Made by a program: the position numbers and the translations under genes. From assembly GCA_947589565.1 (NCBI GenBank), contig CANQBW010000007.1, positions 1-47,260 of the forward strand: a stretch of 47,260 bases of DNA. Direction: 5' to 3'. This document shows, in pieces, positions 183 to 17,513 of this stretch (positions within the stretch are counted from its first letter, which is position 1; every line of letters begins with the position of its first letter). The stretch is from an uncultured Clostridia bacterium (lineage in GTDB: Bacteria > Bacillota > Clostridia > Christensenellales > Borkfalkiaceae). The notes beneath the pieces were generated by a model. It made no database searches, had not been told where the DNA came from, and saw only the letters and a list, made by a program, of their open reading frames with translations.

Positions 183-317
183 CGAATAAAAAGCGTCGCG
201 GGGTTTGGGACACGTCGCAAGTGTCCCAACATTTTTTTGCGCTACTTTTTTGTATGCGTAAAAAAGTAGCAAACGCCCGTCATGCGGAAATGACCGTGTT
301 TAAGCGACCTGCCGCTT
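183..317 (-). repeat. Four-hairpin repeat, copy A1
   Basis: Read on the minus strand it has four stems: AAGCG/CGCTT (302-317), GTCAT/ATGAC (279-294), a long T/A-rich stem GCTAC...GTAGC (241-270) and TTGGGACAC/GTGTCCCAA (205-229), then a tail ending near 183. It lies in the 5' region of tyrS in the same orientation. The stretch 72-182 holds a palindromic repeat of the GGGGATTC...GAATGACA type. Confidence 0.75.
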
Positions 318-567
318 GATCGGAATAACATTGCTGTTTATTACTTTTTATTATACAAATAAAACAGTCTTTTGTCAAGAAAAAATTTCCTGCGGATTTC
401 TCTCTTGCGTCCGCGCAACCGGCTCGGAGCGGAAGAGGTTCGGAAAAGAAATTTCTTCCCCGCGCTTTACCCGCTCTACCCACGTTCGGAGCAGTTCATT
501 TTGCTCCCTTTTTCTGCGCACTCTGCCTCTTTCGATGACTTCTTCAAAATTTTCCCGGATCATATAG
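318..567. other. Spacer without a convincing gene
   Basis: AT-rich DNA at 330-390 is followed by GC-richer sequence. A minus-strand open frame (from an ATG at 581 to 375) is open but has no ribosome site and no recognised similarity. I see no RNA gene. Confidence 0.4.
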
Positions 568-615
568 ACTATTCTATCCATAATAGTTGACAAGTATTGT
601 CATATATGGTAAATT
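568..615 (+). promoter_or_regulatory. Promoter and palindromic operator of the WYL regulator
   Basis: TTGACA (587-592), 17-bp spacer and TAAATT (610-615) form a sigma-A-type promoter 36 bp before the regulator start. A perfect dyad TGACAA-GTA-TTGTCA (588-602) overlaps the -35, and a second one, ACTATT/AATAGT (568-587), lies just upstream. Such placement fits autorepression (inference). Confidence 0.6.
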
Positions 616-650
616 TTTATAGGGAAATCAACCGAAATTTGGAGATTTTT

Positions 651-1574
651 ATGAAATTTCAGATCATGTTGGAAATTCTGTTTATCCTGCTCGCGCGGCG
701 CAAAGTGAGCGCGGGAGAACTCGCGAAAAAATTCGAGGTATCGGTGAGAACGATCTACCGCTACATCGATGAAATGACGATCGCGGGCATTCCCATCGAC
801 GTTGCGCGGGGGTCAAACGGCGGGGTGTACATCTCCGACTCCTTCAAGCTCCCCAAGGGACTGATGACGAAGGAAGAGTATGCGCGGACCATTCAGGCGA
901 TGCTCGCGATGAACGAACAGCTCAAAGACTCTTCGCTCGACTCCGCGATCCAAAAACTCTCCGCACAGATGAAGTCGGAGAAGTACGACCTCACCCTCTC
1001 GGGCAATATCCTCGTGGACAGCGGGACCTGGGGGGATACCAACCGTTTTTCGGAGAAACTCTCCCTGCTCGAGCGGAGCATCGAGGAGAAGTTTGCGCTC
1101 GACATCGACTACATCTCCCGCGACGGCGTGCGCTCGCAGCGGAGAATTTTTCCCCATCTTCTCGTCTACAAGCAAAATATTTGGTATGTCTACGCCTGGT
1201 GCACGACGAGGAATGCCTTCCGCCTCTTCAAACTCGGGCGAATGCGCTCCATGTTGAAGACGGAGGAAATCTTTACGCCCGTCCCCTTCCGCCGCGAGGA
1301 CGTCCCCCTCAAGTTCTGGCACGACGCGGACAAGACCGTTCTCGCGCGGTTTGAGATCTTCTGTGACGCCCTTCCCCTCGTCGAGGAGTGGCTCGGTGTC
1401 GACAATGTGCAAAATTTCAAGGGAAAATACATCTCCGAGGTGGAACTTCCCGACGATGAGTCCCTTGTCGGAAAAATTCTCTCGATGGGACCGGGGATCA
1501 AGGTCCTCTCCCCCGAAACCTTGGCAGAACGCGTCTCGGTTGCGGCAAAAAAAATCACCGAAAGTTATCTTTAA
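651..1574 (+). CDS. WYL-domain (YafY-type) transcriptional regulator
   Basis: A 307-residue protein. The N-terminus (about 1-55) is a DeoR/HTH_11-type winged helix with VSAGELAKKFEVSVRTIYRY. The middle (about 140-200) is a WYL domain with IWYVYAWCTTRNAFRLFKL, and the C-terminus resembles the WCX extension. The family binds DNA as oligomers and senses ligands or nucleic acids through WYL. The start at 651 is chosen because GGAG lies 7 nt upstream; an upstream ATG at 597 would fall inside the promoter. The gene stands 61 bp before a murG-like gene on the same strand. A palindromic operator overlaps its own promoter. The regulated gene is not obvious: the neighbour on the other side is a repeat-filled spacer before tyrS. 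Confidence 0.85.
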   Translation: MKFQIMLEILFILLARRKVSAGELAKKFEVSVRTIYRYIDEMTIAGIPIDVARGSNGGVYISDSFKLPKGLMTKEEYARTIQAMLAMNEQLKDSSLDSAIQKLSAQMKSEKYDLTLSGNILVDSGTWGDTNRFSEKLSLLERSIEEKFALDIDYISRDGVRSQRRIFPHLLVYKQNIWYVYAWCTTRNAFRLFKLGRMRSMLKTEEIFTPVPFRREDVPLKFWHDADKTVLARFEIFCDALPLVEEWLGVDNVQNFKGKYISEVELPDDESLVGKILSMGPGIKVLSPETLAERVSVAAKKITESYL

Positions 1575-1635
1575 GGTTTTCGACGAAAAGCAAGTCGGTT
1601 CCATAAAAAATGACAGTTTGCATATACTGTCTGGT

Positions 1636-2667
1636 ATGAAATACATCCTGTTTTGCGGCGGGGGGAGCGCGGGACATGTCGTGCCCAATCTCGCCGTCAT
1701 GAACGAACTCAAGTACACCCATAGGATCGCCTACGTCGGGACGGGCGGCATTGAAAAGCGGCTGCTTGCGGAGACAAACTTCCCCTTCTTCGAAATTGAC
1801 TGCCCCAAGCTCGTGCGGTCGGTCTGTCTTGACAATTTCTCCATTCCGAAACGGCTTCACCGCGCGAAGAAGGAGGCGATCGAACTTCTGACGCGCGAGA
1901 AGCCCGATCTCGTCGTCTCCAAGGGAGGGTATGCGAGCTATCCCGCAGTCTACGCCGCGCACAAGCTGAAAATCCCCGTCCTCACGCACGAGAGTGACCT
2001 AAAACCGGGGCTGACGACCAAGATGATCGCCAAAAAATGCAACTTTGTGTTGACTTCCTTTCCCGAGACGGCGGGGCTCTTTCCGAACGGCAGATATGTC
2101 GGCTCCCCCATGCGGAAGGAACTGTTCCGCTCCGAAAAGGGCCGCGCGAGAAGGAAGTTCCAGCTCCCCCCCGAGGGGAAAGTTCTCCTTGTCTTAGGGG
2201 GCGGCAGCGGCAGCCGCGCGATCAATGAGGCAGTGCATGAAAATCTTTCAAGACTTTTGAAAAAATATGCAATTTTACACCTTTGCGGCAAGGGAAATCT
2301 CATGGAAGATCCCCCCGAGGGGTATTTCCAGAGGGAGTTTGAAAACGACATGGCGAGCGCGTATGCGGCGTGTGATTTGGTTCTCAGCCGTGCGGGGAGC
2401 AATACCGTCTTTGAGACGATCGCCCTCAAAAAACCGGCGCTCCTCGTTCCGCTCGAGAAAAATTCAAGAGGCGACCAGCTCTTCAACGCGCTTTACTTCG
2501 AAAAGAGACATCTTGCGAAAATTTTGCGGGAGAGCGAACTTTCCGCCCTTCCCGAAGCGCTTGAGAGCCTCGAAGAGGACAAAGAGCTTTTCAAAGCCCT
2601 CTCCGAATCGGAGATCAAAAGCGGCACCCCGCAGATTTTGCAAGTTATAAGAGAAATGCTGAATTGA
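1636..2667 (+). CDS. MurG-like UDP-GlcNAc glycosyltransferase (isolated paralogue)
   Basis: A 343-residue GT-B protein with the MurG layout. The N-terminal loop is GGGSAGHVVPN instead of the usual GGTGGH. It also has KGGYASYPAVYAA, THESDLKPGLTTKM, a second Rossmann half starting LVLGGGSGSRAINEAV, and the donor-site segment SRAGSNTVFETIALKKPALL. MurG adds GlcNAc to lipid I at the inner membrane face to make lipid II. The deviations in the glycine loop and its position outside any mur/fts cluster suggest a second MurG-type enzyme rather than the housekeeping copy, which is not in this window. The start at 1636 has no clear Shine-Dalgarno; TATACT lies at 1623-1628, so the transcript could be nearly leaderless. 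Exact acceptor is unknown. Confidence 0.75.
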   Translation: MKYILFCGGGSAGHVVPNLAVMNELKYTHRIAYVGTGGIEKRLLAETNFPFFEIDCPKLVRSVCLDNFSIPKRLHRAKKEAIELLTREKPDLVVSKGGYASYPAVYAAHKLKIPVLTHESDLKPGLTTKMIAKKCNFVLTSFPETAGLFPNGRYVGSPMRKELFRSEKGRARRKFQLPPEGKVLLVLGGGSGSRAINEAVHENLSRLLKKYAILHLCGKGNLMEDPPEGYFQREFENDMASAYAACDLVLSRAGSNTVFETIALKKPALLVPLEKNSRGDQLFNALYFEKRHLAKILRESELSALPEALESLEEDKELFKALSESEIKSGTPQILQVIREMLN

Positions 2668-2973
2668 ATGGGACGTTACACTGTCTCTTCTATCGACCGA
2701 GGGGATCCATTCGACTCCGTGGCTACGCCACTCCGCTCAGGATGACAGAAAAAAACTGCTGTCATTCTGAGTGAAGCGAAGCGGAATCGAAGAATCTCGT
2801 CCTTTGTTCTAAATCCCATGGTGCGAGCAGGGTTTCCCTGCGCTGCGCGCCCCTGTTTGCGAGCCACCGCACGCTTCTTGTCGTGAAAGCGAACGAGACG
2901 ACCAAACAATTCAAGGCAACCAAGTCCATTTCCTCGAACGGAAATATTCCCGAAGGGAAGATTTCGTTCGAAA
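2668..2973. repeat. Spacer built of dispersed repeats
   Basis: It holds two copies of the B-type imperfect palindrome (about 2695-2800), a piece beginning CTGTTTGCGAGCCACCGCAC (2849-2868) that recurs near 17397 and 43517, and a C-type hairpin (about 2926-2973) ending 2 nt from the yunB stop codon. No coding potential is visible. Confidence 0.65.
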
Positions 2974-2975
2974 CA

Positions 2976-3638
2976 CTAAGGCGCCAGCGGATATTTATTA
3001 TGAAAAAGATCGGCTTGCAGGTAGGTGTCGGGGACTTTCCCCACGAGGACGCTCTCACAGATGAGGACCTCCGTCAGGGAGGCGAAGTTGCTCGTTCCCG
3101 AGGGCATGATGATGGAGATGTCGGCGACAATATCCAAATAAATGCTGTGCTTGGTCTGATTGACGCCCGCCTCCGCAAACGTCGAGGAGAATTTGCACTC
3201 CACGTTGGAGATGGGAATGATCTTGAGGTTGATGTTGGGTCCGAAGCCCGCCCAAGCCTCGATCCCGAAGAAGGCGCCGAGGGGCACGTTGACGCCCGCT
3301 TCGCTCATTTTGGTGAGATTCTGCTGGGACATATATGCCGTGTCGCGCGCGATGCGGTTGATCTCAAAGGCGTTTGAGGTGATCCCCGTGATGTTCCCCT
3401 CTCCGTCCCGCGAGACGTTGATGAGCTCCTCGTAGCGGACCTTGTCCGAGAGGGTATAGTAGACGGCGTCGTTGACGGCGACCGTCGTGATGGAGCGCAT
3501 GGACGCCTCCGCCACCGACTTTAAAACGCGCGTGATGTTGACGTGCAACAAAATGACGGCAAGGAGCAAGCTCAAAGCCGCGGCGATCCACTTGAGTCGC
3601 CGCTTCCACTTGGCTTTGGGTCTTTTGTACTTTTTCAT
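2976..3638 (-). CDS. yunB: Sporulation protein YunB
   Basis: A 220-residue protein with a basic N-terminus (MKKYKRPKAKWKRRLKW), one membrane segment at about 17-35, and an exported domain. SITTVAVNDAVYYTLSDKV, the ISNVECKFSSTFAEAGVNQTKH-type segment (split here: ISNVECKFSS, TFAEAGVNQTKH), and a C-terminus with LICESVLVGKVPDTY are characteristic of YunB. In Bacillus yunB is a sigma-E-dependent mother-cell gene needed for normal spores (family knowledge). The call indicates an endospore former. No strong ribosome site precedes ATG 3638. A CATAAAAT box sits only 6 nt from the ATG, too close to be its promoter. The gene is alone, flanked by repeat DNA on both sides. Confidence 0.85.
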   Translation of the reverse strand: MKKYKRPKAKWKRRLKWIAAALSLLLAVILLHVNITRVLKSVAEASMRSITTVAVNDAVYYTLSDKVRYEELINVSRDGEGNITGITSNAFEINRIARDTAYMSQQNLTKMSEAGVNVPLGAFFGIEAWAGFGPNINLKIIPISNVECKFSSTFAEAGVNQTKHSIYLDIVADISIIMPSGTSNFASLTEVLICESVLVGKVPDTYLQADLFHNKYPLAP

Positions 3639-3709
3639 AGTTACATTTTATGCTTGTCTCTCGACAAAAATAATTTCTGACAAAAAGTTTGGAACAAAAG
3701 GTCGTCTGC

Positions 3710-3840
3710 AAGCGTAATCGCTTCTGATTGTCATGGGACGCATGATGGGCGTTTGCTACTTTTTTACGAATACAAAAAAGTAGCGCAAAAAAATTCCGGG
3801 ACACTTGCGATGTGTCCCGGACCCCGCAACGCTTTCGGTA
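3710..3840 (+). repeat. Four-hairpin repeat, copy A2
   Basis: Stems: AAGCG/CGCTT (3710-3723), GTCAT/ATGAT (3730-3746, one G-T pair), GCTAC...GTAGC with a six-T/six-A extension (3755-3784) and CCGGGACAC/GTGTCCCGG (3796-3820), then the tail ACCCCGCAACGCTTTCGG. It lies between the divergent yunB and amidase genes. Confidence 0.75.
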
Positions 3841-4083
3841 TAGTTACAATCTAAGCGACCGTGGGGATTCCTCGACTGCGCTCGGAATGACAGCGGGGTA
3901 ACGTGTCATTCTGAGCGAAACGGAGTGTAAGCGGAGTGGAGTCGAATGAATCCCCTTGGTCGTTAGAAAAGCCTATATTATGTCAGGCATAGTACTATGC
4001 AAAACGTTGAAAAACGAAAAATCCACTGCTTCTTTTGGCTTTTCCTCGTCGAGAAAGATCGCGAAGCAAGCTTTTCGACGAAA
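3841..4083. repeat. Spacer with B repeats, a shared 30-bp repeat and a C hairpin
   Basis: B-type palindromes fill about 3858-3955. At 3975-4003 is a sequence (ATATTATGTC...ACTATGCAAAA) found again at 29774-29803 with few changes. A C-type hairpin (about 4046-4083), with its CGAAA end toward the amidase gene, closes the block 18 bp before its start codon. Confidence 0.6.
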
Positions 4084-4101
4084 TTTTGCATAGGATGATA
4101 T

Positions 4102-4593
4102 ATGAGCAGATTACAAGTCTACCCCTATGACCGCGAGGGGGCGGTCGCGTATGCGAAGCAGTGGGCGTTCGGGCGGAATCCTAAGTTCTATGATTTCAGT
4201 CGGATCGGCGGCGACTGCACGAATTTCGCCTCGCAGTGCATCTTCGCGGGCGCGGGGGTCATGAATTTTACGCCCGTCTACGGTTGGTTCTATCGCTCGG
4301 TGAACGACAGGACCGCCTCGTGGACGGGCGTTGAGTATCTCTATAACTTTTTGACGACCAACGAGGGGGAAGGCCCCTTTGCAAAGGAAGTTCCGATCGA
4401 GGAAGTAGAGCTCGGGGACATCGTCCAGCTCGGACGGCTGACGGGCGACTTCTACCACTCCCCCGTCGTCGTGGGATTTTCGGGGAACAACATCCTCGTC
4501 GCGGCGCACTCCTACGATGCTTTCGGCCGCAACCTCGTCTCCTACCGTGCCCCCGTCGTGAGAGGCGTACATATTTTGGGAGTGAGGAAGTAA
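4102..4593 (+). CDS. Amidase-domain (Amidase_6, NlpC/P60-like) protein
   Basis: A 163-residue single-domain protein. The motif GGDCTNFASQ places the nucleophile at Cys39. YHSPVVVGFSGN supplies the probable catalytic His119, and AAHSYDAFGR follows. This is the pattern of the putative amidase domain (PF12671), a papain-fold relative of NlpC/P60 found in clostridial and Bacillus sporulation or wall proteins. No signal peptide or membrane helix is visible, so it would act inside the cell, for example in the mother cell (inference from the yunB neighbour). AGGATG lies 5 nt before the ATG. Substrate unknown. Confidence 0.8.
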   Translation: MSRLQVYPYDREGAVAYAKQWAFGRNPKFYDFSRIGGDCTNFASQCIFAGAGVMNFTPVYGWFYRSVNDRTASWTGVEYLYNFLTTNEGEGPFAKEVPIEEVELGDIVQLGRLTGDFYHSPVVVGFSGNNILVAAHSYDAFGRNLVSYRAPVVRGVHILGVRK

Positions 4594-4596
4594 GGG

Positions 4597-5096
4597 TTTC
4601 GAAGAAAATCTTCCTGCGGAATATTTTCTTCGAGGAAATGAGCTCTCGAGTTTCAACAGCCCCGGTTCGGCGGTAGCGCCCGCCTCACCACGCCTCGCCA
4701 CCGGCTCGGCTAAACTCGCCTACGGCTCGTGCGCCGCGCTTGGACAACAATAGAATGGCGCGTCGTCTGCGTTGCGCTCACAGCCCACCGGGCTGTTGAG
4801 CAGGAATGCAACGCTCCACTCTCGTTCGCTTTCACGACAATAAGCCGAAGGGGTTCGGCAAATGGGGTGCCGCTCCGGCAAGGAAACCTTGCCTCGCGCA
4901 GAAAAATTTAGAACAAAGGGCAATGCGCCGTCCGCTATTGCGGACGGCGCATTCTGCTTCCGATGAAAGGCGCGTTGGGAAATCGCATTTTCCATAAGCG
5001 CCTTTTATTTGGAACAAAGGACGAGACCCTTCGACTGCGCTCAGGGTGACATATTTTTCCTCGAACGAAAGATTCCGCAGAAAGATTCGTTCGAAA
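4597..5096. repeat. Repeat block bounded by inverted C-type hairpins
   Basis: This 500-bp spacer between convergent genes begins with a C hairpin 3 nt after the amidase stop and ends with an inverted C hairpin 1 nt before the ABC gene stop. Inside are GC-rich pieces shared with 31360-31380 (CAGCCC...GGGCTG at about 4780-4797), a perfect stem ATGCGCCGTCCGC/GCGGACGGCGCAT (4923-4952), and a B-type palindrome near 5028. No coding frame is credible. Confidence 0.65.
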
Positions 5097-5097
5097 T

Positions 5098-8000
5098 TTA
5101 AAGTGCTCTGATACTCTCCACCGGTTTCTTCTTCGCGGCGAAGTAGACGGGCAGGAAGGTCGAAATCACGGCGACGACTGCGGCGACGGCGACCATCAGA
5201 AGCATCGGCATGGGCCCGAACACGAACAGGGTCACGTCAAAGCCGACCTCCGCCTTCAATATGCTATTCAAGACCGTCGTCAAAATCATAGAGCCGACGA
5301 TCGCAAGAATCGTGCAGATCCCCACGATGATCCCGCTCTCCGAGAAGAAGATCTTGAACACGTCCGTCCCCCGTGCGCCGACCGCGCGCAGGATGCCGAT
5401 CTCCCGCTTTTTGTTCGAAATACTCATCGAAATGAAGCTGAAAAGCAGCAGCGCAGAGAAGATCATGAACACGAGTCCGACCGCGAGGAAGACGACGGAG
5501 AGAACGTCCACAAGCTCGTTGACCGTGTCAACGTCCGTATACAGACGGTTGTCAAGACGGTATAAGACGTCCGTCTCCGGGTCGACTGTCCCCGTCCGCG
5601 CGACGAAATTCAAGATCCCGTCCCTCGTTTTTGTGAAGGGTACAAGCACGCAGGTAAATTTTTCGTCCGGGTCGTGGACATATTTTGTCTCGATCTGAAC
5701 GTCCATTTGAACCTTTTCCGACGCGTCGTAGAACGCCTGCGAGCAATACATTCCATTGGCAAGATTGTAGAATTTCTCCTCTTCGGAATAGAACAGTCCG
5801 ACGACTTTGAAGGTCGTCTCCGTCCCGACGGAAGCGTCATCTCCCCTGTTCTCATAGTGCATCGCCGAGACCTCGAAGGGCTCCTTGACGGCGCCTTCGA
5901 TGATCTTGACGAGTTTTTCAACGTCCTCTTTTCCCTTGACGGGGATCCACTCGTCCGTCTCCTCGACGTAATATTCCCAGCCGATGAGCCCCTGCAGCGC
6001 CTGCTGCACGGCGACATTCTCCTTGTCGAGCTGCTTTAATTTTCCCTCAAACTCCTCCATCGCTTTTTGGAAGCTCTCGTCGTCTTCGAAGTCGGATTCT
6101 TGAGGCATTTCCTTTTGCAGCTCTTCACGTTTGATACTGTATTGCTCGGACAGGTAGCCGATCAAAAAGACCGGCGCGACGATGATCTCCTTTTCTTCGA
6201 GGGCGCTCGTCTCTCCGTCAAAGCGGAGCACGGAGAGCTGCTCTTTTGTGGGATTCTCCTCATACACCCTCATCGCGCTCGTGCCGTAGAAGTCATTCTC
6301 CTCATTGTAGGGGCTTATAAAGGAATAGTAGTCATCCATCGCGTCGAAGTACTCGATAAAGTTCTCCTTTCCGCTCTCGAGAGGATGTGCCTCAAAAAAG
6401 GGATCATCCACGAGGACAAGCTCAAAGAGCCCCTCTTCGAGAAAGCTCATATAGGTATATTCGAGAAGAAAGTCCTCCTCTGTTTTGAGTTTTTCATACT
6501 TATGGGGAATTTCCCCGCAGTCGAAGACGCCCGAAATCTTGAAGACGCCCCCTCTGACCACGAGATACTCCCCGACGAGGGAAGAGGCGGACTCGATCTT
6601 CTTCTCCCCCTTCTCCTCCCCCTTTTCGTCGCAGGAGGTGAAGGTGCCGTTCCGGGCACACTCCGCAAAATAAGAGCTGACGCAGATTTCATTCTCTCCC
6701 GTGGGGTAACTTCCCGCGACGAGTTTTTTGCGAAGCGGATGATTCGCGGGAAGGGAGGAGACCAGATGAAGTTCGGGCTGATAATAGGTCCGATTGTCGC
6801 GGTGCATTTGAAGATTTTCGGGCGTGACGTCATAGCGGTATGCGCCGACAGCGTTCTCCCCGAAGGAAGAGACCTCTTTCGGCGTAAACTGCGTCTGATC
6901 CCGCGAGACAGAGGTATACCCGCCCCCATAGGTGTAGCGGGCTTCATATTGTTTGGAGAGGAGCAGATACTCATAGTCGCTTTTCAAAAAGGACTCGGCG
7001 AGCACTTCGTTCCCGTCGTAGAGCATCATGGTCGAGAAGAGTCCGAACATGACAAAGGAGACGAAGGACAGTAAAATGGTAAATGCGAGACGCACGGGCT
7101 TGAGTTTGAGGCCCGACGCACCGATTCGAATCGCCTTTCTCGCCGGAAGGCGGGATTTGATGAATTTGGGGCTTTCGGAACTTTCGGGAATGCTCTTTTC
7201 GTCCGTCTCCACAAAGCGTTCGCGGGCGCCGCTCTCGTCGATACGGTTTGCCCGCTTGAAATTTTTGTTCTCCTCTTCGCCCTTGCTTAAGAGAACTTCC
7301 CCCTCCCCTTCGCGCAAAAATTCGCAGACGGTGCGGAGAGTCTCCTCGTCCGGATCGCCGCTTTGCACGGAGAGAAGATTCTTTCCGATTCTCTTGACCT
7401 TGGAGCTTACAGGCTCCGCACTCTCGCGGGTCTTGGTGACGTCGGAGATGATCTTCCCGTCCTTGAGTTCGACGATCCTGTCGCCGTACTCCTCCGCGGA
7501 GGCGCGGTCGTGCGAGACGACGAGGACAAGCCGCGTTTTGGAGAGATGTTTCAAAGTCTCAAAGACCTGTTTTCCGGTTGCAGAGTCCAAAGCTCCCGTC
7601 GGTTCGTCCGCCATAATGATCTGCGGGTCCTTGACGAGGGCGCGGGCGATGGCAATCCGCTGCTTCTGCCCGCCCGAGAGGGTGTTCGGCTTGCGCTTGG
7701 CGTAAGAGGCGAGTTCGACTTCTTCGAGGATCCTCTTGACTTTCTCCCGCTCCTTGGTCTTGCCCTGGAGTTCGAGGGCGAGCGCGACATTGTCCTCAAC
7801 ATTAAATTCATTCAGGATATTATATTCCTGAAAGACAAAACCGACGTAGGTATTTCGATAACTATCGAAATCGGAGCCTGTAAAGTCCTTGGAGGACTTG
7901 CCCATGATGACGATTTCGCCGCTCGTCGGCTCGTCGAGTCCGCCCGCGAGGTTCAAAAGGGTGCTCTTCCCCGACCCGGACTTTCCGAGCAGGAAGACGA

Positions 8001-8100
8001 GCCCCGTCTTGTCGAAGGACACGGACACATTGTCGAGCGCGAGCGTCTCCGCTCCCCCCTTCGTGCGGTAAATTTTCGTTAAGTTTTTGATTTTTAACAT
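5098..8100 (-). CDS. ABC exporter: MacB/FtsE-like ATPase fused to FtsX-type permease
   Basis: A 1000-residue fusion. Residues 1-220 are an ABC ATPase: Walker A GKSGSGKST (39-47), signature LSGGQKQRIAIARAL, Walker [13 protein letters not shown], and switch SHD. An acidic linker follows. One membrane helix at about 335-360 precedes a large extracellular region (about 360-860), and three helices form the FtsX core, including ISNKKREIGILRAVGARGTD. This architecture is that of type VII (MacB/BceAB/LolCDE-like) mechanotransmission transporters, which often handle antimicrobial peptides, lipids or wall hydrolase signals. Cargo is unknown. It is a single-gene unit: a promoter at 8681-8710 points at it across a repeat-filled leader, back-to-back with the sigma operon. 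A ribosome site (GGGAGGAG) lies in the repeat just upstream of ATG 8100. Confidence 0.88.
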   Translation of the reverse strand: MLKIKNLTKIYRTKGGAETLALDNVSVSFDKTGLVFLLGKSGSGKSTLLNLAGGLDEPTSGEIVIMGKSSKDFTGSDFDSYRNTYVGFVFQEYNILNEFNVEDNVALALELQGKTKEREKVKRILEEVELASYAKRKPNTLSGGQKQRIAIARALVKDPQIIMADEPTGALDSATGKQVFETLKHLSKTRLVLVVSHDRASAEEYGDRIVELKDGKIISDVTKTRESAEPVSSKVKRIGKNLLSVQSGDPDEETLRTVCEFLREGEGEVLLSKGEEENKNFKRANRIDESGARERFVETDEKSIPESSESPKFIKSRLPARKAIRIGASGLKLKPVRLAFTILLSFVSFVMFGLFSTMMLYDGNEVLAESFLKSDYEYLLLSKQYEARYTYGGGYTSVSRDQTQFTPKEVSSFGENAVGAYRYDVTPENLQMHRDNRTYYQPELHLVSSLPANHPLRKKLVAGSYPTGENEICVSSYFAECARNGTFTSCDEKGEEKGEKKIESASSLVGEYLVVRGGVFKISGVFDCGEIPHKYEKLKTEEDFLLEYTYMSFLEEGLFELVLVDDPFFEAHPLESGKENFIEYFDAMDDYYSFISPYNEENDFYGTSAMRVYEENPTKEQLSVLRFDGETSALEEKEIIVAPVFLIGYLSEQYSIKREELQKEMPQESDFEDDESFQKAMEEFEGKLKQLDKENVAVQQALQGLIGWEYYVEETDEWIPVKGKEDVEKLVKIIEGAVKEPFEVSAMHYENRGDDASVGTETTFKVVGLFYSEEEKFYNLANGMYCSQAFYDASEKVQMDVQIETKYVHDPDEKFTCVLVPFTKTRDGILNFVARTGTVDPETDVLYRLDNRLYTDVDTVNELVDVLSVVFLAVGLVFMIFSALLLFSFISMSISNKKREIGILRAVGARGTDVFKIFFSESGIIVGICTILAIVGSMILTTVLNSILKAEVGFDVTLFVFGPMPMLLMVAVAAVVAVISTFLPVYFAAKKKPVESIRAL

Positions 8101-8680
8101 ATAAACTCCTCCCGCCGGAAAGGCGTTCTTTCCCCCATGTCATTCTGAGTGGAGCGAAGCGGAATCGAAGAATCCCCCTGACCTAAGCGACCAAGCCGCT
8201 TAAACATTGTCTCTCACGCATGACATGCGTTGTTACTTTTTTTACGAATACAAAAAAAGTAACCAAAAAAAATTCCGGGATGCTTGCGTATGCATCCCGG
8301 ACCCTTTAACGCTTTTTATTCGGGATACATTCTTTTCTATCGACCAAGGGGATTCCTCGACTGCGCTCGGAATGACACGTTACCCCCCATGTCATTCTGA
8401 GTGGAGCGAAGCGGAATCGACGACGCGCCATTCTATATGTTATCCAAGCGCGCCTCACGAGCCCCTTTCCTGTCATGTTGAGCGGAACGAAGTGGAGTCG
8501 AAACATCTCGTCCTTAATTGGAAAGGGGCAAGTAAACTCTCGTCCTTAATAATAAGGTGAAAAGGGCGAGATTCCTCGACTGCGCTCGGAATGACACGTT
8601 ACCCCCCATGTCATTCTGAGTGGAGCGAAGCGGAATCGAAGAATCCCCTAAGCAAGCGACGGGGCGTTCCTTTTAGAGCC
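8101..8680. repeat. Repeat-filled leader/spacer, 580 bp
   Basis: Contains the CGCCGGAAAGGCGTTCT module (8111-8127) shared with 17091-17107, several B-type palindromes (8135-8175, 8345-8425, 8465-8515, 8570-8650) and repeat copy A3. If the promoter at 8681-8710 is used, all of this is the untranslated leader of the ABC exporter. Confidence 0.6.
8185..8328 (+). repeat. Four-hairpin repeat, copy A3
   Basis: Stems: AAGCG/CGCTT (8185-8201), TGTC/GACA (8208-8225), GTTAC...GTAAC with seven-T/seven-A extension (8232-8263) and CCGGGATGC/GCATCCCGG (8275-8300), tail ACCCTTTAACGC. Compared with copy A2, two base pairs of the last stem changed on both sides. Confidence 0.75.
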
Positions 8681-8710
8681 ATTTTATCATACTATTATTG
8701 TCTAAGTCAA
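8681..8710 (-). promoter_or_regulatory. Minus-strand promoter toward the ABC exporter
   Basis: On the minus strand TTGACT (8710-8705), 18-bp spacer and TAAAAT (8686-8681) with a TGA just before it (extended -10 form). It implies a leader of about 570 nt for the gene starting at 8100. Confidence 0.5.
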
Positions 8711-10466: not shown

Positions 10467-10492
10467 AAAAATTTATTTTTTGGAGGTATAGT

Positions 10493-10684
10493 ATGAAACA
10501 CTCAACCAAAGAAGCACTCAAACGCTTCGGCATTGCCACGGCATGTCTGACTCTTGTCGCCTCGACGACATTGCCCTTCATGGGTAACAGACCCCTCACG
10601 GCAGAAGAACTCGAAAGAGCAGAGCTGTTAGCAACCATGCGAGACTACCGAAAAGAAATCGTAGTCCCCGCCTCTTTGGATTAA
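10493..10684 (+). CDS. Small secreted peptide, third gene of the sigma operon
   Basis: A 63-residue product: basic N-terminus MKHSTKEALKRFG, hydrophobic core IATACLTLVASTTLPF, then a charged tail (TAEELERAELLATMRDYRKE). This is the layout of a signal peptide with a mature part of about 35-40 residues, or of a single small membrane anchor. GGAGG at 10482-10486 lies 6 nt before ATG 10493; the open frame extends upstream but has no better start. It follows the anti-sigma gene by 26 bp and precedes a terminator, so it is the last gene of the operon. I recognise no family. It could be a ligand or modulator of the membrane protein (inference). Confidence 0.6.
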   Translation: MKHSTKEALKRFGIATACLTLVASTTLPFMGNRPLTAEELERAELLATMRDYRKEIVVPASLD

Positions 10685-10707
10685 ATACCTCCACATCATT
10701 TTGCTTA

Positions 10708-10737
10708 GGGCGCAAAGCATATGCTTTGCGCCCTACT
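10708..10737 (+). terminator. Intrinsic terminator of the sigma operon
   Basis: A perfect 26-bp palindrome: GGGCGCAAAGCAT (10708-10720) and its complement (10721-10733), followed by TACTTTT, 23 bp after the peptide stop codon. Confidence 0.75.
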
Positions 10738-10760
10738 TTTCACCTAAAAACCTCACACCA

Positions 10761-10794
10761 TCGGCAGCGGGCGGCAATTGCCGCCCGCTGCCGA
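10761..10794. repeat. Perfect 34-bp GC-rich palindrome
   Basis: TCGGCAGCGGGCGGCAA (10761-10777) and its exact complement (10778-10794). No T-run on either side. It lies 46 bp beyond the end of the broken toxin gene and may be a REP-like element or a barrier to convergent transcription. Confidence 0.6.
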
Positions 10795-10840
10795 ATTATA
10801 TTGTTCCATCTCCGCTCAAGAATATTCGGCTCTTTCCTTG

Positions 10841-11420
10841 CTAAAATTTCAAGGCAGAAAAATCCCGCGAACCATGGACGACCGTCGTTACGATCACGGA
10901 ATCCTCTTCCACAGAATAGATCGTGACATAGGAATAAGTGATTAAGGTGAAGGGAATCGAACCCGCGACGGTTTTGGGCGGCGGATTTCCGCCCGGTTCT
11001 TCGTCGACTCCCTTGGCAATACCATCTAGTATTCCCTGCGGTCGTCTCCTTGCCCAAACGAAAATCCGCTCGCCCAAAACTGCTTTGCACTCCCGCGTGG
11101 CAATTTTCGAGGGATTTGTGCCGAGGAGGAGGAAGGTTTACCGGACGTAAATCGACGACGACGCAGGCAAAAAGAGCCGAAAAGAGCCCACGGGAGCGGC
11201 GCGGATTCGATTCCCTTCACCTTATGTAGCGATATTTGACATTGAATCCGATTTTGTTACTCAATTTTGCACCGCTTTCGGGGAAATCCCGCAATCACTC
11301 GATGTCATCGAGAATCTTTCCAATGACCCTTTGCGCCTCTTCTAAGCTGTCCTCGGAAATAAATTCTTTGATGGAGAGTAAATCATCGTACACCTGAGGG
11401 TTGATTTTCAATTGCTTCAT
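10841..11420 (-). pseudogene. ParE/RelE-family toxin gene, broken twice
   Basis: From ATG 11420 the minus strand reads MKQLKINPQVYDDLLSIKEF, continuing ISEDSLEEAQRVIGKILDDIE, then TGA, then LRDFPESGAKLSNKIGFNVK, then YRYI. Here a 280-bp element interrupts. After it the same frame resumes as ITYSYVTIYSVEEDSVIVTT, VVHGSRDFSALKF and a TAG stop at 10841. Removing the element with one copy of TA restores a 100-codon frame typical of ParE. The TGA sits where the family usually has Arg before LRDFPESG (CGA to TGA by one transition). ParE toxins poison gyrase or, in RelE relatives, cut mRNA. The start is 3 nt after the antitoxin stop, the usual order. The toxin should be inactive. Confidence 0.85.
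10943..11224. mobile_element. MITE-like element with 25-bp inverted ends inserted at TA
   Basis: The left end TAAGGTGAAGGGAATCGAAC (10943-10962, then CCGCG) is the inverted complement of the right end (11200-11224), with one mismatch over 25 bp. TA occurs at both outer edges and excision leaving one TA repairs the toxin frame, which points to a TA duplication of the Tc1/mariner-IS630 type. The interior (about 230 bp) is GC-rich with internal pairing and no transposase frame, so it is non-autonomous. Confidence 0.8.
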
Positions 11421-11423
11421 TGC

Positions 11424-11669
11424 TTAAATCCCAAGTTTTGAACGAAGAGTTGACAAATCAATATATGGTTCGCCGCGTTCTGTACGCTGCTCCGCACCCA
11501 TGATCTTTTCCATGAGCTTGATTTGCGCCATAAGCTCATCATACTGCTCCACATCCATGATGACATATTTTCCGCGTCCGTTCTTTGTCAAAAAGACCGG
11601 GGAATCCGCTCTGCAATCCTGCAATACCGTTGAATAATTCCTCAGGTCGGAAATGGGTTTAATGGTCAT
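11424..11669 (-). CDS. Phd/YefM-type antitoxin
   Basis: An 81-residue protein MTIKPISDLRNYSTVLQDCR, with VFLTKNGRGKYVIMDVEQYD in the middle, the standard Phd/YefM DNA-binding half. The C-terminal half (about 50-81) normally wraps the toxin. Start 11669 is preferred over an ATG six codons upstream because a GGGGG ribosome site lies 8 nt before it. It forms the first gene of a TA operon, but the toxin gene behind it is a pseudogene. The antitoxin frame and promoter are intact. It may persist as an autorepressor or as an anti-addiction factor against related toxins elsewhere (inference). Confidence 0.85.
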   Translation of the reverse strand: MTIKPISDLRNYSTVLQDCRADSPVFLTKNGRGKYVIMDVEQYDELMAQIKLMEKIMGAEQRTERGEPYIDLSTLRSKLGI

Positions 11670-11704
11670 ATCTCTGCCCCCTTGCATTTTTCTTTGCTGT
11701 AAAT

Positions 11705-11733
11705 ATTATAGCATAATTTTACGAAAAATACAA
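11705..11733 (-). promoter_or_regulatory. Promoter of the toxin-antitoxin operon
   Basis: On the minus strand TTGTAT (11733-11728), 17-bp spacer and TATAAT (11710-11705), with TGC before the -10 (extended form). It is 36 bp before the antitoxin start and appears undamaged. Confidence 0.65.
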
Positions 11734-11739
11734 CAGCAT

Positions 11740-12320
11740 TTTATCAATTTTCCGAAATATTTTTCGCGCCGCCTGTAAATTGCAGGCGGCGCATCATTTT
11801 CGTTAAGTTGTAACCTCGGAACGACAGGTAGGAATGAGCAAAGCGATGTCATTCTGAGCGAAACGGAGCGCAAGCGGAGTGGAGTCGAATGAATCCCCCT
11901 AAGTTTCGACGAAACGTTCCAAAACCGTAATTCAACATTCTATCGACCGGGGGGATTCTTCAACTGCGCAACGCATTGCGCTGCTCCGTTCAGAATGACG
12001 TCGGGGAACGACTGCGCCGCCTGCAAATTGCAGGCGGCGCATTGCCCTTTGTTCTAAAATCCCATGACTTAGGTTTCCTGGTCGTTAGAAAAGCCTGTAT
12101 TACGAAGAGCGTTGCGGGGTCTGGGACACAATCGCAAGTGTCCCAGGCTTTTTTGCTACTTTTTTCAGCATTGAAAAAAGTAGGTGCATGTCTTGCTCAA
12201 AAGACAGTGTTTAAGCGACCTGTCGCTTGCTCAGGGGGATGTTTCGACTCCGCTTCGCTCCGCTCAACATGACAGAGGGAAGAACGCCTTTCCGGCGAAG
12301 AGGAATTATCGTCAAAACTT
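11740..12320. repeat. Repeat-filled spacer
   Basis: Contains two GCGCCGCC...GGCGGCGC stems (11766-11792 and 12014-12040), B-type palindromes (about 11845-11905, 11950-12000, 12235-12285), repeat copy A4, and a partial CTTTCCGGCG module (about 12283-12298). No gene is apparent apart from the small frame that follows. Confidence 0.6.
12098..12228 (-). repeat. Four-hairpin repeat, copy A4
   Basis: Minus orientation. Stems: AAGCG/CGCTT (12213-12228), TGTCTT/AAGACA (12189-12206), CTACTTTTTT/AAAAAAGTAG (12156-12183) and CTGGGACAC/GTGTCCCAG (12121-12146). Loops differ from other copies but every stem pairs. Confidence 0.75.
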
Positions 12321-12398
12321 CTATTTCTTCAAAAGTCTCCTCAAATATTCCTCGTACTCCTCGTCCGTAAGTTTGGGAAGTTTCTTAGATTTTGACAT
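12321..12398 (-). CDS. Possible 25-residue small protein behind the ABC exporter
   Basis: The minus strand reads MSKSKKLPKLTDEEYEEYLR, then RLLKK and a stop. AAGGAG lies about 8 nt before the ATG, a better ribosome site than many larger genes here have. It follows the ABC-FtsX gene by 107 bp on the same strand, so it could be on the same transcript. The charged, helical composition is protein-like, but no family is recognised and a frame this short can arise by chance. Confidence 0.45.
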   Translation of the reverse strand: MSKSKKLPKLTDEEYEEYLRRLLKK

Positions 12399-12505
12399 AT
12401 CCGCGGCTCCTTGGAAGTTTACTAAAAGTATGTCCCGCGGGGTCCCCTTTCATGCGGATGGGTGCGATTTTCTTGTCATAGCTTTTGCTAATTGGAAAGC
12501 TTTGC

Positions 12506-15184
12506 TCACTCCGTCCGCAGGGCGATGACGGGGTCCTTCTTCGCGGCGGCGGAGGCGGGAATGAGTCCGGAAATCAAGGTCAGCACGACGCTGACGAGCA
12601 CCATGATCGCGGACGTCAAAATGGGCAGCGCGGCAATGCCCGAAATTCCGCTCAGCGAGTAGATGATCCCATTGATGGGAAGTTCCAAGAGGTATGTGAC
12701 GGCCGCGCCGATGAGTCCCGCCGAGAGGCCGATGATAAAGGTCTCCGCATTGAACAGGTTCCGGATGTCCTTCTTCCGTGCGCCGAGCGAGCGCAGCACG
12801 CCGATCTCCTTGACGCGCTCCACCACCGACACATAGGTGATGATCCCGATCATGACCGACGAGACGACGAGCGAGATCGCCGTGAACGCCACCAAGACGT
12901 AGGTGATGACGTTGAGCATTGTCTGCACCATGCCCATGAGGAGCCCGACCGTATCGGTGTAGGTGATCTTTTCGGCCTCCGTTGTCGTACTCAGATCATT
13001 CCAGGCGTCTAAATAGTCCAGGACGAGGTCCTTGCTGTCGAAGTCGCGCGGGAAGATGGAGACGGAGGTCGGCGAATCATTTCCGCCGAGGAATTGAACG
13101 ACTCCCTCGGCATTGTAGGTGAGGGTCACAGACATTGCGCCGTTGCCCGCCGTGAAGAATCCGCTCTGCGAATTTAAGTGCGCCGAGGGCGAGAAGTAAA
13201 TATCCAGCCCCTCGGGGATCTGCGCGCCCGAGCCCATCATGCCCAAAAGGTCCTTGGGGACTTTCGCGTCCTCACTATTCATCCATTTGACGATGTCCGA
13301 CTGCTTGTTGTGCTCGATGTAGGTCATGACGGACTCCTCGGTGAGGTTGAGTCCCTCCGAGAGGCACCCATAGGTGTACCCCTCTTTGAGCCGAAGGATG
13401 GCGGTGACGGTGAGTTCCAAGCCCTCGTCCGCAGTTGCGGAGAGGCTGTCGCGCTCTCCCGAGTACTCAAAGGGATAGCCGCCCGTGAATGCCGTCTGTC
13501 CCGTCGCTTTGTAAATCGAATTATTGTAATACAGGACGTATTTTTTGCCGATGAGCTCGTCGAGGGGAAGCAGATGATCCCACTCCTCCTCCGCGTCCCC
13601 CGCCTCTTCGATGAAGGGAGAGATGAAGTGCTTTTCATCGAGAATGCCGAGCTGCGCGGCGGTCATGTCGGTGAGCACGTTGTCCTCGCCGAGGACAAGG
13701 ACGGCTTCATTCGGATTGGTCGGGAAGTGGGCGTTCTCGCCGATGATGTCGTACTGGCTCAAGACAAAGTCGGCATAGCCCTCGGCGGAACTATCCAAAG
13801 TGTCGGGCATTTTATGGACGATGTTGCCGAAGAAGTCCGCCATCGAGAGCAAACTGTTATACTGGGGTGCGTAAGTTCTCAGTTCGCTGATATAGAAGGA
13901 CTTGAGCTCGGTGATCGAAAAGTTGCGGTGGACCTGTTCGGTCTCCTGTCCCTCGTGCTTGACGCCGCCGACCAAGACGTCGGTGAACAGATTGTCGGTG
14001 AGGGAAACTCCGTATCCGTACTGGACGGCGTTGACGATCTCGGGGTCGATCTTGTCGATATAGTCCACATATTTTTCGCTGATGTCGTTCGTGACGGCGA
14101 TATTCTTGGCAAGTCCCGTCAGGAAAGAGTTGACATATGCCTTATCGGGCAATTTTTCCATGTCGGGCATGTCGTTGACGCTCGCCATCGCGCCCATGAC
14201 GGCGGTCATGTCGAAGGTGTTCTCCGTGATGCTGATGGGATAGTAGGAGAGCATATCCTCCTCGGTCCTTCGGATATAGTTATTGAAGCCGCTCGAGAGC
14301 GCGAGCACGAGGGAGACGCTGATGATGCCGATACTTCCCGCGAAGGAAGTTAAGATCGTCCTTCCCTTCTTGGTGAGAAGATTCCGCGCGGAGAGTGCGA
14401 GCGCCGAGAAAAAGCCCATACGGGTGCGGGCTTTTTTCTTTTTGCCCCCCTTTTCCTCCGTGCGCTCGTCCTTGTTGACGTCCCAGGACTCCTCCTCGTC
14501 CTCGTTCTCGTAGGGGTTGCTGTCCGACTCCACCAAGCCGTCCTTGAGGCGGACTATGCGCGTTGCATAGTCCTCCGCGAGCTCGGGGTTGTGGGTGACC
14601 ATGATGACGAGCCTCTCCCCCGCGATCTCGCGAATGAGGTCCATGATCTGGACGCTCGTCTTGCTGTCGAGTGCGCCCGTGGGTTCGTCGGCAAGAAGAA
14701 TATCGGGATTGTTGACGAGGGCGCGGGCGATCGCGACGCGCTGCATCTGTCCGCCCGAGAGCTGGTTGGGCTTTTTGAAGAGCTCCTTGCCAAGTCCGAC
14801 GCGCTCGAGAGCCTCTTTGGCACGTTTTCTTCGCTCCTCTTTGCCCATGCCCGCGATCGTGAGCGCGAACTCGACGTTCCCCAAAACCGTCTGATGGGGT
14901 ATCAAATTATAGGTCTGGAAGATAAATCCGATGCGGTGATTGCGGTAAACGTCCCAGTCGCGGTCCTTGAAATTCTTCGTGGACTTGCCCTGAATGATGA
15001 GGTCGCCCTCCGTGTAGTGATCGAGTCCGCCGATGATGTTCAAAAGCGTCGTCTTTCCGCAACCGGATTGTCCCAAAATGCAGACAAACTCATTCTTGCG
15101 GAAACTCAAATCGATGCCCTTTAAGGCGGGCACCGTCCCGTCCGCAACTTTATAATCCTTTTTGATCCCCTTCAGTGTCAACAT
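12506..15184 (-). CDS. ABC exporter: ATPase fused to FtsX-type permease (second copy)
   Basis: An 892-residue fusion with the same plan as the 1000-residue one. ATPase at 1-230: Walker [10 protein letters not shown] (38-46), signature [15 protein letters not shown], Walker [16 protein letters not shown], switch THN. A charged linker (about 235-285) precedes one helix (about 310-330), a large outer region, and three C-terminal helices with [20 protein letters not shown]. The family moves peptides or lipids outward, or transmits mechanical signals across the membrane. Cargo is unknown, and the outer region is unlike that of the other fusion. Start 15184 is chosen because GGAGAGGAAG precedes it and the ATPase begins at once; the longer frame to 15307 runs into repeat DNA. 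A consensus promoter at 15547-15575 gives a leader of about 355 nt. Confidence 0.88.
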
Positions 15185-15530
15185 ATCTTCCTCTCCAAAT
15201 AAGTGTTTCGACAAAAATCTTCCTGCGGAATCTTTTTGTCGAAGAAATGAACTTCCCATGCCTTTTAAGGATGAGATGTTTCGACTCCGCTTCGCTCCGC
15301 TCAACATGACATGTGAGTACCGATGTCATCCTGAGCGCAGTGGCGTAGCCGCGAAGTCGACGCCACATCGTTCTATTGAGAATCGATATGTGGCGCACGA
15401 GCCGTAAGGCGAGACAGGCGCACCCGTTCTATTGTGCCACAACGTGCGCCTCACGTGCCTTTAGGCGAAGTAAGGATCTCGCCCTTAAAAGCCAAACTCG
15501 CGATGTGCAGCGCAATTTTGGTAAAAAATT
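15185..15530. repeat. Repeat-containing leader of the second ABC exporter
   Basis: Holds a C-type hairpin starting 22 bp from the start codon (15206-15258), B-type palindromes (15270-15360), a stem CGCCACAT/ATGTGGCG (15361-15393) and sequence shared with other spacers (CGTGCGCCTCACG, about 15443). It would all be transcribed from the promoter at 15547-15575. Confidence 0.6.
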
Positions 15531-15546
15531 CCTTTTTACCGCAAAC

Positions 15547-15575
15547 ATTATATGATAAAATTGGGGTACTGTCAA
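15547..15575 (-). promoter_or_regulatory. Consensus promoter of the second ABC exporter
   Basis: On the minus strand TTGACA (15575-15570), exactly 17 bp, TATAAT (15552-15547): a perfect match in both boxes. The nearest downstream gene on that strand begins at 15184. Confidence 0.7.
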
Positions 15576-15632
15576 CCCCTCGAACCTATTTTTTGTGAAA
15601 TTTCACGAACTTATTATTTTTCTGTAAAAATT

Positions 15633-15780
15633 GCTTTCAGATTGAAAGCAAAAAAAGTTCTGTTTGTCTCTCACGCGAGACAGGCGTTGTTACTTTTTTT
15701 ACGAATACAAAAAAAGTAACCAAAAAAAATTTTGGGACACTTGCGACGTGTCCCAAACCCCGCGACGCCTTTCGTAATAC
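15633..15780 (+). repeat. Four-hairpin repeat, copy A5
   Basis: Stems: GCTTTCA/TGAAAGC (15633-15649, replacing AAGCG/CGCTT), TGTCTC/GAGACA (15665-15682), GTTAC...GTAAC (15689-15720) and TTTGGGACAC/GTGTCCCAAA (15731-15757), then a tail ACCCCGCGACGCC. A further repeat stretch and an inverted C hairpin (15915-15958) fill the gap to the next stop codon. Confidence 0.75.
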
Positions 15781-15959
15781 AGCCCTTTGTTCTAATCCAA
15801 CTGCGCGGAGCAGAATCGCCATTCTGCGGTAGCGCCCCCTGTTTGCGCCCCACAGGACGCACATTGTTGTGAAAGCGATGAAGAGAGTTACTTAATCAAG
15901 GCAAAAAGGTTAATTTCCTCGAACGTAAATATTTCCGAAGGAAAGATTTCGTTCGAAAC

Positions 15960-17078
15960 TCATTCAGGTTTTTTTCCAAAAAAGCCGAACAATCCGCACT
16001 CAAGGTTGGCGTTATAGAGCTTTCTGCGCTTGTCTGCCTTGCCGCCGAAGCAGCGCTCCGCCTCGGGAAAGCCGGAGAGAAAATAGCAGCTCCACTTGTC
16101 GAGGGAGCGGAAGACCTTTCCGAAATCGCGGTAGAGGGGGCGCAGATCCTCTTCCCTTCCCATTCGCTCGCCGTAGGGCGGATTGCTCATGAGAATACCG
16201 TAACTCTCCTTAGATGTAAAATTTCGCATGTCCGCGACCGCAAATCTGATGTGTTCCTCCACGCCTGCGCGGCGGGCGTGAAACCTTGCAAGCTCGATCG
16301 CTTTCGGGTCGACGTCGCCTGCAAATAGTTCGAGTTTCGTCGTGCGGTCGCGGAGCTCCTCCGCCTGTTTTTTGAACCCATCCATCACTTTTGGAGTATT
16401 TTTCCAGTGGAGAAAGTCAAAATCCCGCTTCGCTCCCGGGGCAATTTTCAGGGCGTAGAGGGCGGCTTCGATGGGGATCGTCCCGCTCCCGCAGAAGAGG
16501 TCGGCAAAGGGTTTTCCCGCGCGGTAGAAGGAGCTTTCGACCATCGCCGCAGCGGTCGTCTCTTTGAGGGGCGCCTCCCAATTCTTGACGCGGTAGCCGC
16601 GCTTGTGAAGTCCATCGCCCGAAGTATCGAGGGTGACGGTCGCAACGTCGCGAAAAATCGAGACGCCGACGATCGCCCGCTCTCCCCTCTCGTCGAGCGA
16701 TCTTATACCGAGCTTCTGTTTGAGTCTCTCCACGATCGCCTTCTTCGCGACCCCACCCGCCGCTTTGATCGCGCCGAGCTTGCTTTGAGAGCTCTTTCCG
16801 TCCATGCGGATGAGGGTGTGCGCGGACAGAAATTCTTCGAAGGGAAGTTTTCGAACATTCTCGAAGAGCTCGTCGAAGGTCGTCGCTTGAAAGCTACCCA
16901 ACGAGATGAGGACGCGTTCGCCCGAACGCAAAAAGACGTTCAGCCGTGCAACGTCCTCCCAATCGCCGGTCAAAGAAATTCTGCCCTCGATGGCGGGGCA
17001 GTCTCCGTAGCCGAGCTCCTTCAATTGTCGCTTGACGCTCGCCTCCAATCCCGAGGCACAGGGAATCAATAATTTCAA
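15960..17078 (-). CDS. rlmL: THUMP-domain 23S rRNA guanine-N2 methyltransferase, RlmL/YpsC type
   Basis: A 372-residue protein. An N-terminal ferredoxin-like plus THUMP region (about 1-155) ends with TVTLDTSGDGLHKRGYR. A Rossmann methyltransferase (about 160-372) carries motif I ADLFCGSGTIPIEAALYA and motif IV NPPYGERMG. This matches the single-domain RlmL/YpsC family, which makes m2G in 23S rRNA using S-adenosylmethionine. It lacks the second RlmK half of the E. coli protein, as is usual in Firmicutes. GGAGG lies 12 nt before ATG 17078, slightly long spacing, and that ribosome site belongs to a repeated module also found before the gene at 8100. The 3' end abuts a C-type hairpin. Confidence 0.85.
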   Translation of the reverse strand: MKLLIPCASGLEASVKRQLKELGYGDCPAIEGRISLTGDWEDVARLNVFLRSGERVLISLGSFQATTFDELFENVRKLPFEEFLSAHTLIRMDGKSSQSKLGAIKAAGGVAKKAIVERLKQKLGIRSLDERGERAIVGVSIFRDVATVTLDTSGDGLHKRGYRVKNWEAPLKETTAAAMVESSFYRAGKPFADLFCGSGTIPIEAALYALKIAPGAKRDFDFLHWKNTPKVMDGFKKQAEELRDRTTKLELFAGDVDPKAIELARFHARRAGVEEHIRFAVADMRNFTSKESYGILMSNPPYGERMGREEDLRPLYRDFGKVFRSLDKWSCYFLSGFPEAERCFGGKADKRRKLYNANLECGLFGFFGKKPE

Positions 17079-17513
17079 TAAAATTCCTCCCGCCGGAAAG
17101 GCGTTCTGTTCACAAGCGGAATCGCTTTAAATTGTCTTTTCCAAAGGACGAACATGTTACTTTTTTACGAATACAAAAAAGTAACCAAAAAAATTTTGGG
17201 ATGCTTGCGTATGCATCCCAAACCCTTTAACGCTTTTCGTAATAAAGGCATTCTAACGACCGGGGGGATTCACGCTCGCTGCGCTCGCTTTCGGCTCCAC
17301 TCCGCTTACGCTCCGTTCCGCTCAGAATGACATTCGGTAGCTCTTTGTTCCAAATAAAAGGCGCGTTGGGAAATTTCATTTTCCATAAGCGCACCCTGTT
17401 TGCGAGCCACCGCACGCTTATTGCCGTTTGAAACGAATGAGACGATCAGGCTGTGGGAACTCGAGAGTTCATTTCCTCGACAAAAATATTGCGTAGCAAG
17501 ATTTTTGCCGAAA
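17079..17513. repeat. Repeat-filled spacer with copy A6
   Basis: Begins with the module shared with 8101-8127 (CCTCCCGCCGGAAAGGCG). Copy A6 of the four-hairpin repeat (plus, 17114-17245) has AAGCG/CGCTT (17114-17127), GTCTTT/AAAGGAC (17134-17149), GTTAC...GTAAC (17156-17185) and TTTGGGATGC/GCATCCCAAA (17195-17222). B-type DNA follows (17260-17330), then a C hairpin (about 17470-17513) ending 7 nt from the next stop codon. Confidence 0.7.

Follow-up and report, generated by a model that had tools for sequence, protein, structure and literature searches.

Among the described bacterial repeats, those closest to the one considered here are BOX elements, the REP/REPIN sequences and MITEs. For BOX elements of Streptococcus, ISSpn2 has been proposed as the mover, acting by way of similar ends (PMC3049150); the accessible portion of that paper's text contains neither ‘covari’ nor ‘compensatory’. 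REPINs consist of two REP sequences in inverted orientation and are associated with RAYT genes, and compensatory changes have been reported for them in the available part of the source (PMC3116915). The repeat analyzed here comes from an uncultured gut bacterium of the Clostridia, represented by a draft assembly (1.59 Mb, 93% complete). We use ‘window’ for the whole stretch of DNA that was analyzed, one entire contig of 47,260 nt. The repeat is dispersed, occupies two sites that are short in relatives, covaries significantly and pairs in its core almost strictly by Watson-Crick rules. With a probability of roughly 0.6, we consider it to be a non-autonomous, modular, chromosomal MITE/REP-like DNA-hairpin repeat of a mobile type, the mechanism of which we infer below.

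Copies of the repeat in the window and in the host genome

An earlier note on this DNA had placed six copies of a four-stem element in the window, all with a single order of stems. We located all six with nhmmer (E-values from 1e-31 to 3e-38), so the places are confirmed; the common order holds except that stem 1 is absent from copy c5. Copy c1 (183..317, minus strand; nhmmer 186-317) has all four stems and lies between a sigma-70-like promoter (378-350, minus strand) and the contig's first gene (start 71, minus strand). Copy c2 (3710..3840, plus strand), characterized by both nhmmer and single-stranded DNA folding, consists of stem 1 (3710-3714/3719-3723), stem 2 (3731-3735/3741-3745), stem 3 (3755-3765/3774-3784) and stem 4 (3795-3804/3812-3821), followed by CCCCGCAACGC. 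Copy c3 (8185..8328, plus strand; nhmmer 8185-8319) has the GGGATGC tip of stem 4 and a TTT tail, and is bordered on both sides by pieces of another repeat (8136-8180 and 8341-8380). Its stem 2 is broken, because a TGTCTC arm stands opposite ATGACA. Copy c4 (12098..12228, minus strand) represents the CTAC type of stem 3, with the loop CAATGCTG. In copy c5 (15643..15780, plus strand; nhmmer 15647-15779) stem 1 has been lost and AAGCAAAAAAAGTT is found in its place. Copy c6 (17114..17245, plus strand; nhmmer 17114-17243) lies between RlmL-like and CNNM genes, and its stem 2 includes two G-T pairs. The paired changes listed earlier are correct for stems 3 and 4; for stem 2, the break in c3 and the wobbles in c6 are corrections to that list. 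When folded as single-stranded DNA, five of seven strands scored better than all 200 shuffles, and c1 and c5 were each equalled by one shuffle in 200 (z from -2.7 to -6.3 over the seven strands).

The host genome contains at least 44 copies. A blastn search gave 44 matches at E ≤ 0.001 with 40 of 59 candidates scored; here, as in the model searches described below, the number of candidates scored sets an upper limit on the copies counted per genome. An nhmmer search of the fetched stretches returned 54 rows, including 36 full copies, 7 interrupted or cut ones and 5 reverse-strand echoes. One further copy of this genome (G000:C2:21199-21333) was found by the model R1 search only and is part of no alignment. 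The order of stems is the same in all 36 full copies: AAGCG.CGCTT, TGTC../..GAC, G(T/C)TAC or CTAC with T6-7/A6-7,.GGGACAC/GTGTCCC. and a tail CCC....ACGC. Many copies begin with AAGCG and end with CGCTT, a match of 5 nt only. Uninterrupted Watson-Crick pairs number at least 10 in stem 3 and at least 9 in stem 4, both in the six window copies and in the 36 parsed full copies.

The core module and its companions

Stem 3 (hairpin A) and stem 4 (hairpin B) form the core of the repeat. CAAAA serves as the linker between them, the loop of hairpin B is often TTnCG, and CCC follows as the tail. In the 68 core sequences compiled below, the linker is present in 67, CCC after hairpin B in 63 and the TTnCG loop in 52, counts that come from rows picked by a model that itself holds these letters. 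In the host genome the tip of stem 4 switches between GGGACAC and GGGATGC in full linkage with the tail (CGC in 29/29, TTT in 7/7). The base of stem 4 (CC/GG or TT/AA) varies with both tips; the four combinations account for 18, 3, 9 and 4 of the 36 copies, with CT/AG in the other 2. The occurrence of both base types with both tips, despite the full linkage of tip and tail, indicates that the two arms of the stem 4 base changed together. A pseudoknot between the stem 4 loop TTGCG and the tail CGCAA was considered and rejected, as it is broken in the TTT-tail copies.

The modular organization is also apparent from insertions and partial units. Repeat X, about 280 nt long with inverted ends, stands alone in the window (10943..11224, plus strand) and also interrupts stem 3 in three of the genome's other copies. 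Four copies contain an insert of about 50 nt in the loop of stem 4; all of them keep the seven-pair core and two keep the base as well. Units of stems 1 and 2, some partial, occur in tandem ahead of some copies. Stems 3 and 4 together are a module that is found in other genera too, which could not be seen from the stretch on which the earlier note was based.

Covariation of the paired arms

We compiled a core alignment of 68 sequences, 19 of them from the genus; having been fitted to the structure, it leans towards the structure. In this alignment 95.0% of 1310 cells pair and both-sided changes are seen at 18 of the 20 pairs. Both-sided cells number 273; shuffles gave 76, and sliding by 1-3 columns left no more than 37. 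Four of five covariation measures were reached by none of 500 shuffles, while the fifth (further pair types) did not rise above them, being reached by 164 of 500. We also applied our own R-scape-like test, in which substitutions were redistributed along the branches of a FastTree tree and pairs were scored by an APC-corrected G statistic against 40 nulls. With this test 11 of the 20 pairs were significant (E < 0.05), nine with scores higher than any null, and no pair outside the structure reached significance.

The host genome's own copies gave a narrower result. The corresponding alignment (A3) includes 34 of the 36 full copies, two near-duplicates being left out. Here 6 of 26 pairs are significant, two in stem 2 and four in stem 4, while stems 1 and 3 have none in this alignment; one further significant pair falls outside the structure. 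The earlier note had proposed that significant covarying pairs in all four stems would support its reading, and had named a lack of covariation in a larger alignment, or a match to a described repeat, as outcomes that would speak against it. Significant pairs did emerge from the larger core alignment, although in the own copies those within the structure are confined to stems 2 and 4. None of the copies was matched by an Rfam family. The view that the pairing is under constraint is supported.

Wobble pairs and the RNA alternative

Such covariation is usually taken as a sign of RNA structure. A structured RNA selected for its fold, either a small RNA or a 3'-UTR element, would account for it and also for the partial conservation of the unpaired letters. 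However, the core has almost no G-U pairs. Leaving aside the three basal pairs, 1098 of 1110 core cells are Watson-Crick, 2 are G-T, 1 is A-C and 9 are other. With the basal pairs included, the 1310 cells comprise 3 G-T, 27 A-C and 38 other, and a single basal pair accounts for 48 of the unpaired cells. Stems 3 and 4 show hardly any one-sided G-U intermediates. For comparison, RNase P of the same genome has 6 G-U among 101 cells (Fisher p 7e-6 versus the core), an imperfect control in that 6 A-C and 2 other cells occur there as well.

The region of stem 2 is more accommodating to an RNA. Wobbles occur within it, and at the pair beneath it 15 of 36 copies have U-G and 14 have U-A. Yet within the five pairs of stem 2 (36 copies) G-T and A-C are equally frequent, 5 of 180 cells each. 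Alignment A3 as a whole has G-T in 39 of 882 cells, most of which we ascribe to one out-of-register column pair of stem 3 and to the pair beneath stem 2. A core nearly free of wobbles, together with a stem 2 without preference for the strand an RNA would use, favors a constraint or correction acting on DNA over an RNA fold. The joint change of the two arms of the stem 4 base agrees with this. On these grounds the core pairing would fit enforcement or copying at the DNA level better, which falls short of proof.

Gene setting points in different directions in the host and in other genera. Around 39 own copies the four gene orientations are evenly represented (12, 9, 8 and 7; three copies lack one neighbor). 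Genes were called here by a simple ORF search that disregarded any ORF running across a copy. The even distribution bears out the earlier claim of no fixed relation to gene orientation and speaks against an RNA. In contrast, among the 47 copies of other genera, many of them contributed by a handful of genomes, the preceding gene is more often on the same strand (28, versus 14 on the opposite strand and 5 with none called), which could mean an RNA role there. In two of the genomes (G210 and G149) 5 of 9 copies begin 1-6 nt past a called same-strand gene. Against an RNA stand also the flanks, which by eye vary from copy to copy, so that a common promoter is not evident (the promoter scan covered the window only). 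In addition, no Rfam family matched the window above its gathering cut-off, and the fetched loci gave only weak, chance-like matches at a loose threshold. Taken together, we regard a structured RNA as rather unlikely; the small-RNA family that had been put forward as one of two favored readings has lost ground.

Distribution among relatives and putative insertion sites

Stems 3 and 4 were found in 3 of 103 genus genomes, the host included, by the stem 4 pattern and by model R1 alike. The two genus-mates, G120 and G110, have at least 29 and at least 3 copies, respectively, of a diverged form, and neither this form nor the host's was found in the other 100 genomes searched. The two share stems 3, 4 and the tail, which by eye are embedded in a larger unit that includes other hairpins. 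Only the host genome showed stems 1 and 2. Core model R2, built from 14 core sequences, detected related hairpin pairs in 17 of 391 genomes of the class (13 of 222 genera) and in 3 of 398 of the phylum set. Both counts include the host and G239, which is doubtful by eye and was omitted from the Y1_Tnp, gene-orientation and further carrier comparisons; the third phylum match, G873, has the same anatomy. Arm sequences differ widely between the carriers across the class. Strict search filters mean that weak matches were lost. A pattern scan of 84,980 species, each represented by a single genome, produced 38 stretches. Besides the two genus-mates, hairpins A and B occur in the same order in CANPVN (Lapin-001), JAFQWW (Goat_Colon) and WRDI (Bacillota). 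A clear hairpin A is missing from the matches in Anaerococcus, Rothia, an Acidobacteriaceae MAG and a Chloroflexi MAG. Searches of open PMC text brought up no description of the repeat, and none of the papers listed for one of its strings concerns bacterial repeats by title.

Two sites in the window are consistent with insertion. At c6 the RlmL-CNNM gap, measured between tblastn ends, is 442 nt. Of 16 relatives, 15 have 4-124 nt there, and the stretch from the remaining one lacks RlmL. At c2 the YunB-amidase gap, measured in the same way, is 463 nt; in the six relatives where both genes were found it is 68-95 nt in four, and 400 and 790 nt in two. As both gaps are long here and short in relatives, c2 and c6 look inserted. 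The distance at c5 (775 nt) says little, since it is short (about 131 nt) only in G036 and G120, and is 523-675 nt in eleven other genomes and 1368 nt in one. Neither a target duplication nor an exact empty site was seen, none of the relatives compared having an alignable empty site, and an empty form of the flanking repeat had 0 regex matches in the fetched stretches. New insertion need not be assumed for all sites, as a glycosyltransferase near c1 and c2 also adjoins a G120 copy, in the same orientation relative to c1. The neighbor comparison, which covered part of the G120 copies, gave three weaker matches as well (45-46% over 57-86 residues). The idea of a dispersed, structured repeat of a mobile type is sustained by at least 44 copies and by two sites that are short in relatives.

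These data bear on a further alternative, namely that the units are old palindromes kept perfect through template-switch correction alone, with no present mobility. The accessible literature describes imperfect inverted repeats being corrected in this way, and the near absence of one-sided changes from the core is what it would leave behind. However, presence in only 3 of 103 genus genomes, combined with the two sites that are short in relatives, calls for spread at some time. Moreover, no inverted loop was noticed by eye in the 68 rows. We consider this explanation unlikely.

Hairpin B followed by a T run, read on the reverse strand of the element, could also act as a portable intrinsic terminator. 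A terminator scan calls a site in five of the six window copies, and 46 terminator-like sites were obtained in 18 kb, compared with 22.6 in shuffles. Nevertheless, of 37 downstream neighbors 16 are transcribed towards the 3' side and would use it, which is no excess, and copies occur between divergent genes as well. In several other genera the stem and the T run are set apart by a few bases, and stems 1-3 would be left unexplained. Termination as the reason for the repeat is therefore distinctly improbable. A riboswitch or leader is rejected, in line with the lower rank that the earlier note gave to a cis-riboswitch, because orientation is even and the annotated neighbor genes in the window differ in function. 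Phage or plasmid cargo is likewise rejected: a blastn search with c2 at E 0.001 gave nothing among 72,556 plasmid and 50,697 phage records, and the four stretches of viral contigs with the stem 4 pattern turned out on reading to be other palindromes (a second pattern matched two stretches, and three hairpin A patterns 1, 0 and 0).

A candidate mechanism and comparison with known systems

For a mobile DNA-hairpin repeat we envisage the following course. A single-stranded state, as in replication or repair, would let the hairpins fold. A trans-acting enzyme might recognize them mainly by shape and spread the unit into intergenic DNA. The arms would stay complementary through hairpin-templated mismatch correction, through failure of mismatched copies to move, or through both. 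Several movers were considered. Y1_Tnp was not found in the host genome (a 93% complete draft) or in 6 of 17 other carriers searched, the other 11 having a Y1_Tnp of some kind; a RAYT mover is not supported. RVT_1 was found in G110 only among three genomes and DDE_Tnp_1 in none of the three, and with neither found in the host draft both were set aside as movers.

More speculatively, at odds well short of even, the core may define an undescribed Clostridia-wide superfamily of miniature mobile DNA. Its enzyme would read the hairpin shape with the loop and the CCC tail, so that arm sequence could turn over freely while perfect DNA complementarity is enforced. Should a mover be found, this hairpin repeat family of gut Clostridia would gain a mechanism; otherwise it would stand as an orphan family with a searchable model, R2. 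A core that covaries strongly yet has hardly any G-U suggests that hairpins in DNA are able to produce the signal usually ascribed to RNA structure, a warning for screens that seek new RNAs.

As far as the accessible descriptions go, the repeat resembles BOX elements (PMC3049150) in its many copies, stem-loops, past spread and modular build with middle modules that vary in number. It differs in that no parent element was found; this comparison is by description, not by sequence. With REP, BIME and REPIN sequences, as presented in the available part of the source (PMC3116915), it shares short palindromes, clusters, hairpins in single-stranded DNA and compensatory changes. Unlike in REPINs, its hairpins follow one another in the same order and direction in all 36 full copies and form no inverted doublets, and no Y1_Tnp (RAYT) was found in the host genome, which speaks against REP/REPIN membership. 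Compared with MITEs, as defined in the consulted portion of PMC3049150, its ends match over 5 nt only, no empty site could be aligned, and searches for DDE_Tnp_1 and RVT_1 revealed no parent transposon. Nevertheless, it has the non-autonomous look, the dispersal, the high degree of base pairing and the short matching ends (AAGCG/CGCTT) of such elements.

Genomic surroundings of the element

In five copies from two other genera (L176, L195, L214, L215 and L181), the core of the element, comprising hairpin A, a CAAAA linker, hairpin B and a CCC tail, is preceded by a called same-strand gene that ends 1-6 nt before the core start. In a further stretch, L194, the core is traversed by a reading frame. 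A hairpin A of the element's kind, GTTACTTTTTG..CAAAAAGTAACCAAAAA, is also present in one viral contig (L239, positions 3737-3772), with no clear hairpin B beside it.

A promoter scan of the window revealed a perfect match to TTGACA-17-TATAAT at 378-350 (minus strand), positioned 5' of both copy c1 of the element and the first gene of the contig, all on the same strand (region 71-378). Judging from its start, MKNVLDILRERGFIKQT, this gene may encode a tyrosyl-tRNA synthetase.

The intergenic DNA of the window is also occupied by a second dispersed repeat, which flanks copies of the four-hairpin element. Its sequence is about CATTCTGAGTGGAGCGAAGCGGAATCGAAGAATCCCC (8136-8180, 8388-8423, 8607-8648, 12232-12274, 2760-2796 and others) and its partner is GGGGATTCCTCGACTGCGCTCGGAATGACA (8341-8380, 3856-3892 and 126-159).

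Repeat X, of about 280 nt, is found at 10943-11224. By eye, its ends, AGGTGAAGGGAGTCGAA and TTCGACTCCCTTCACCT, appear to resemble a tRNA T arm.
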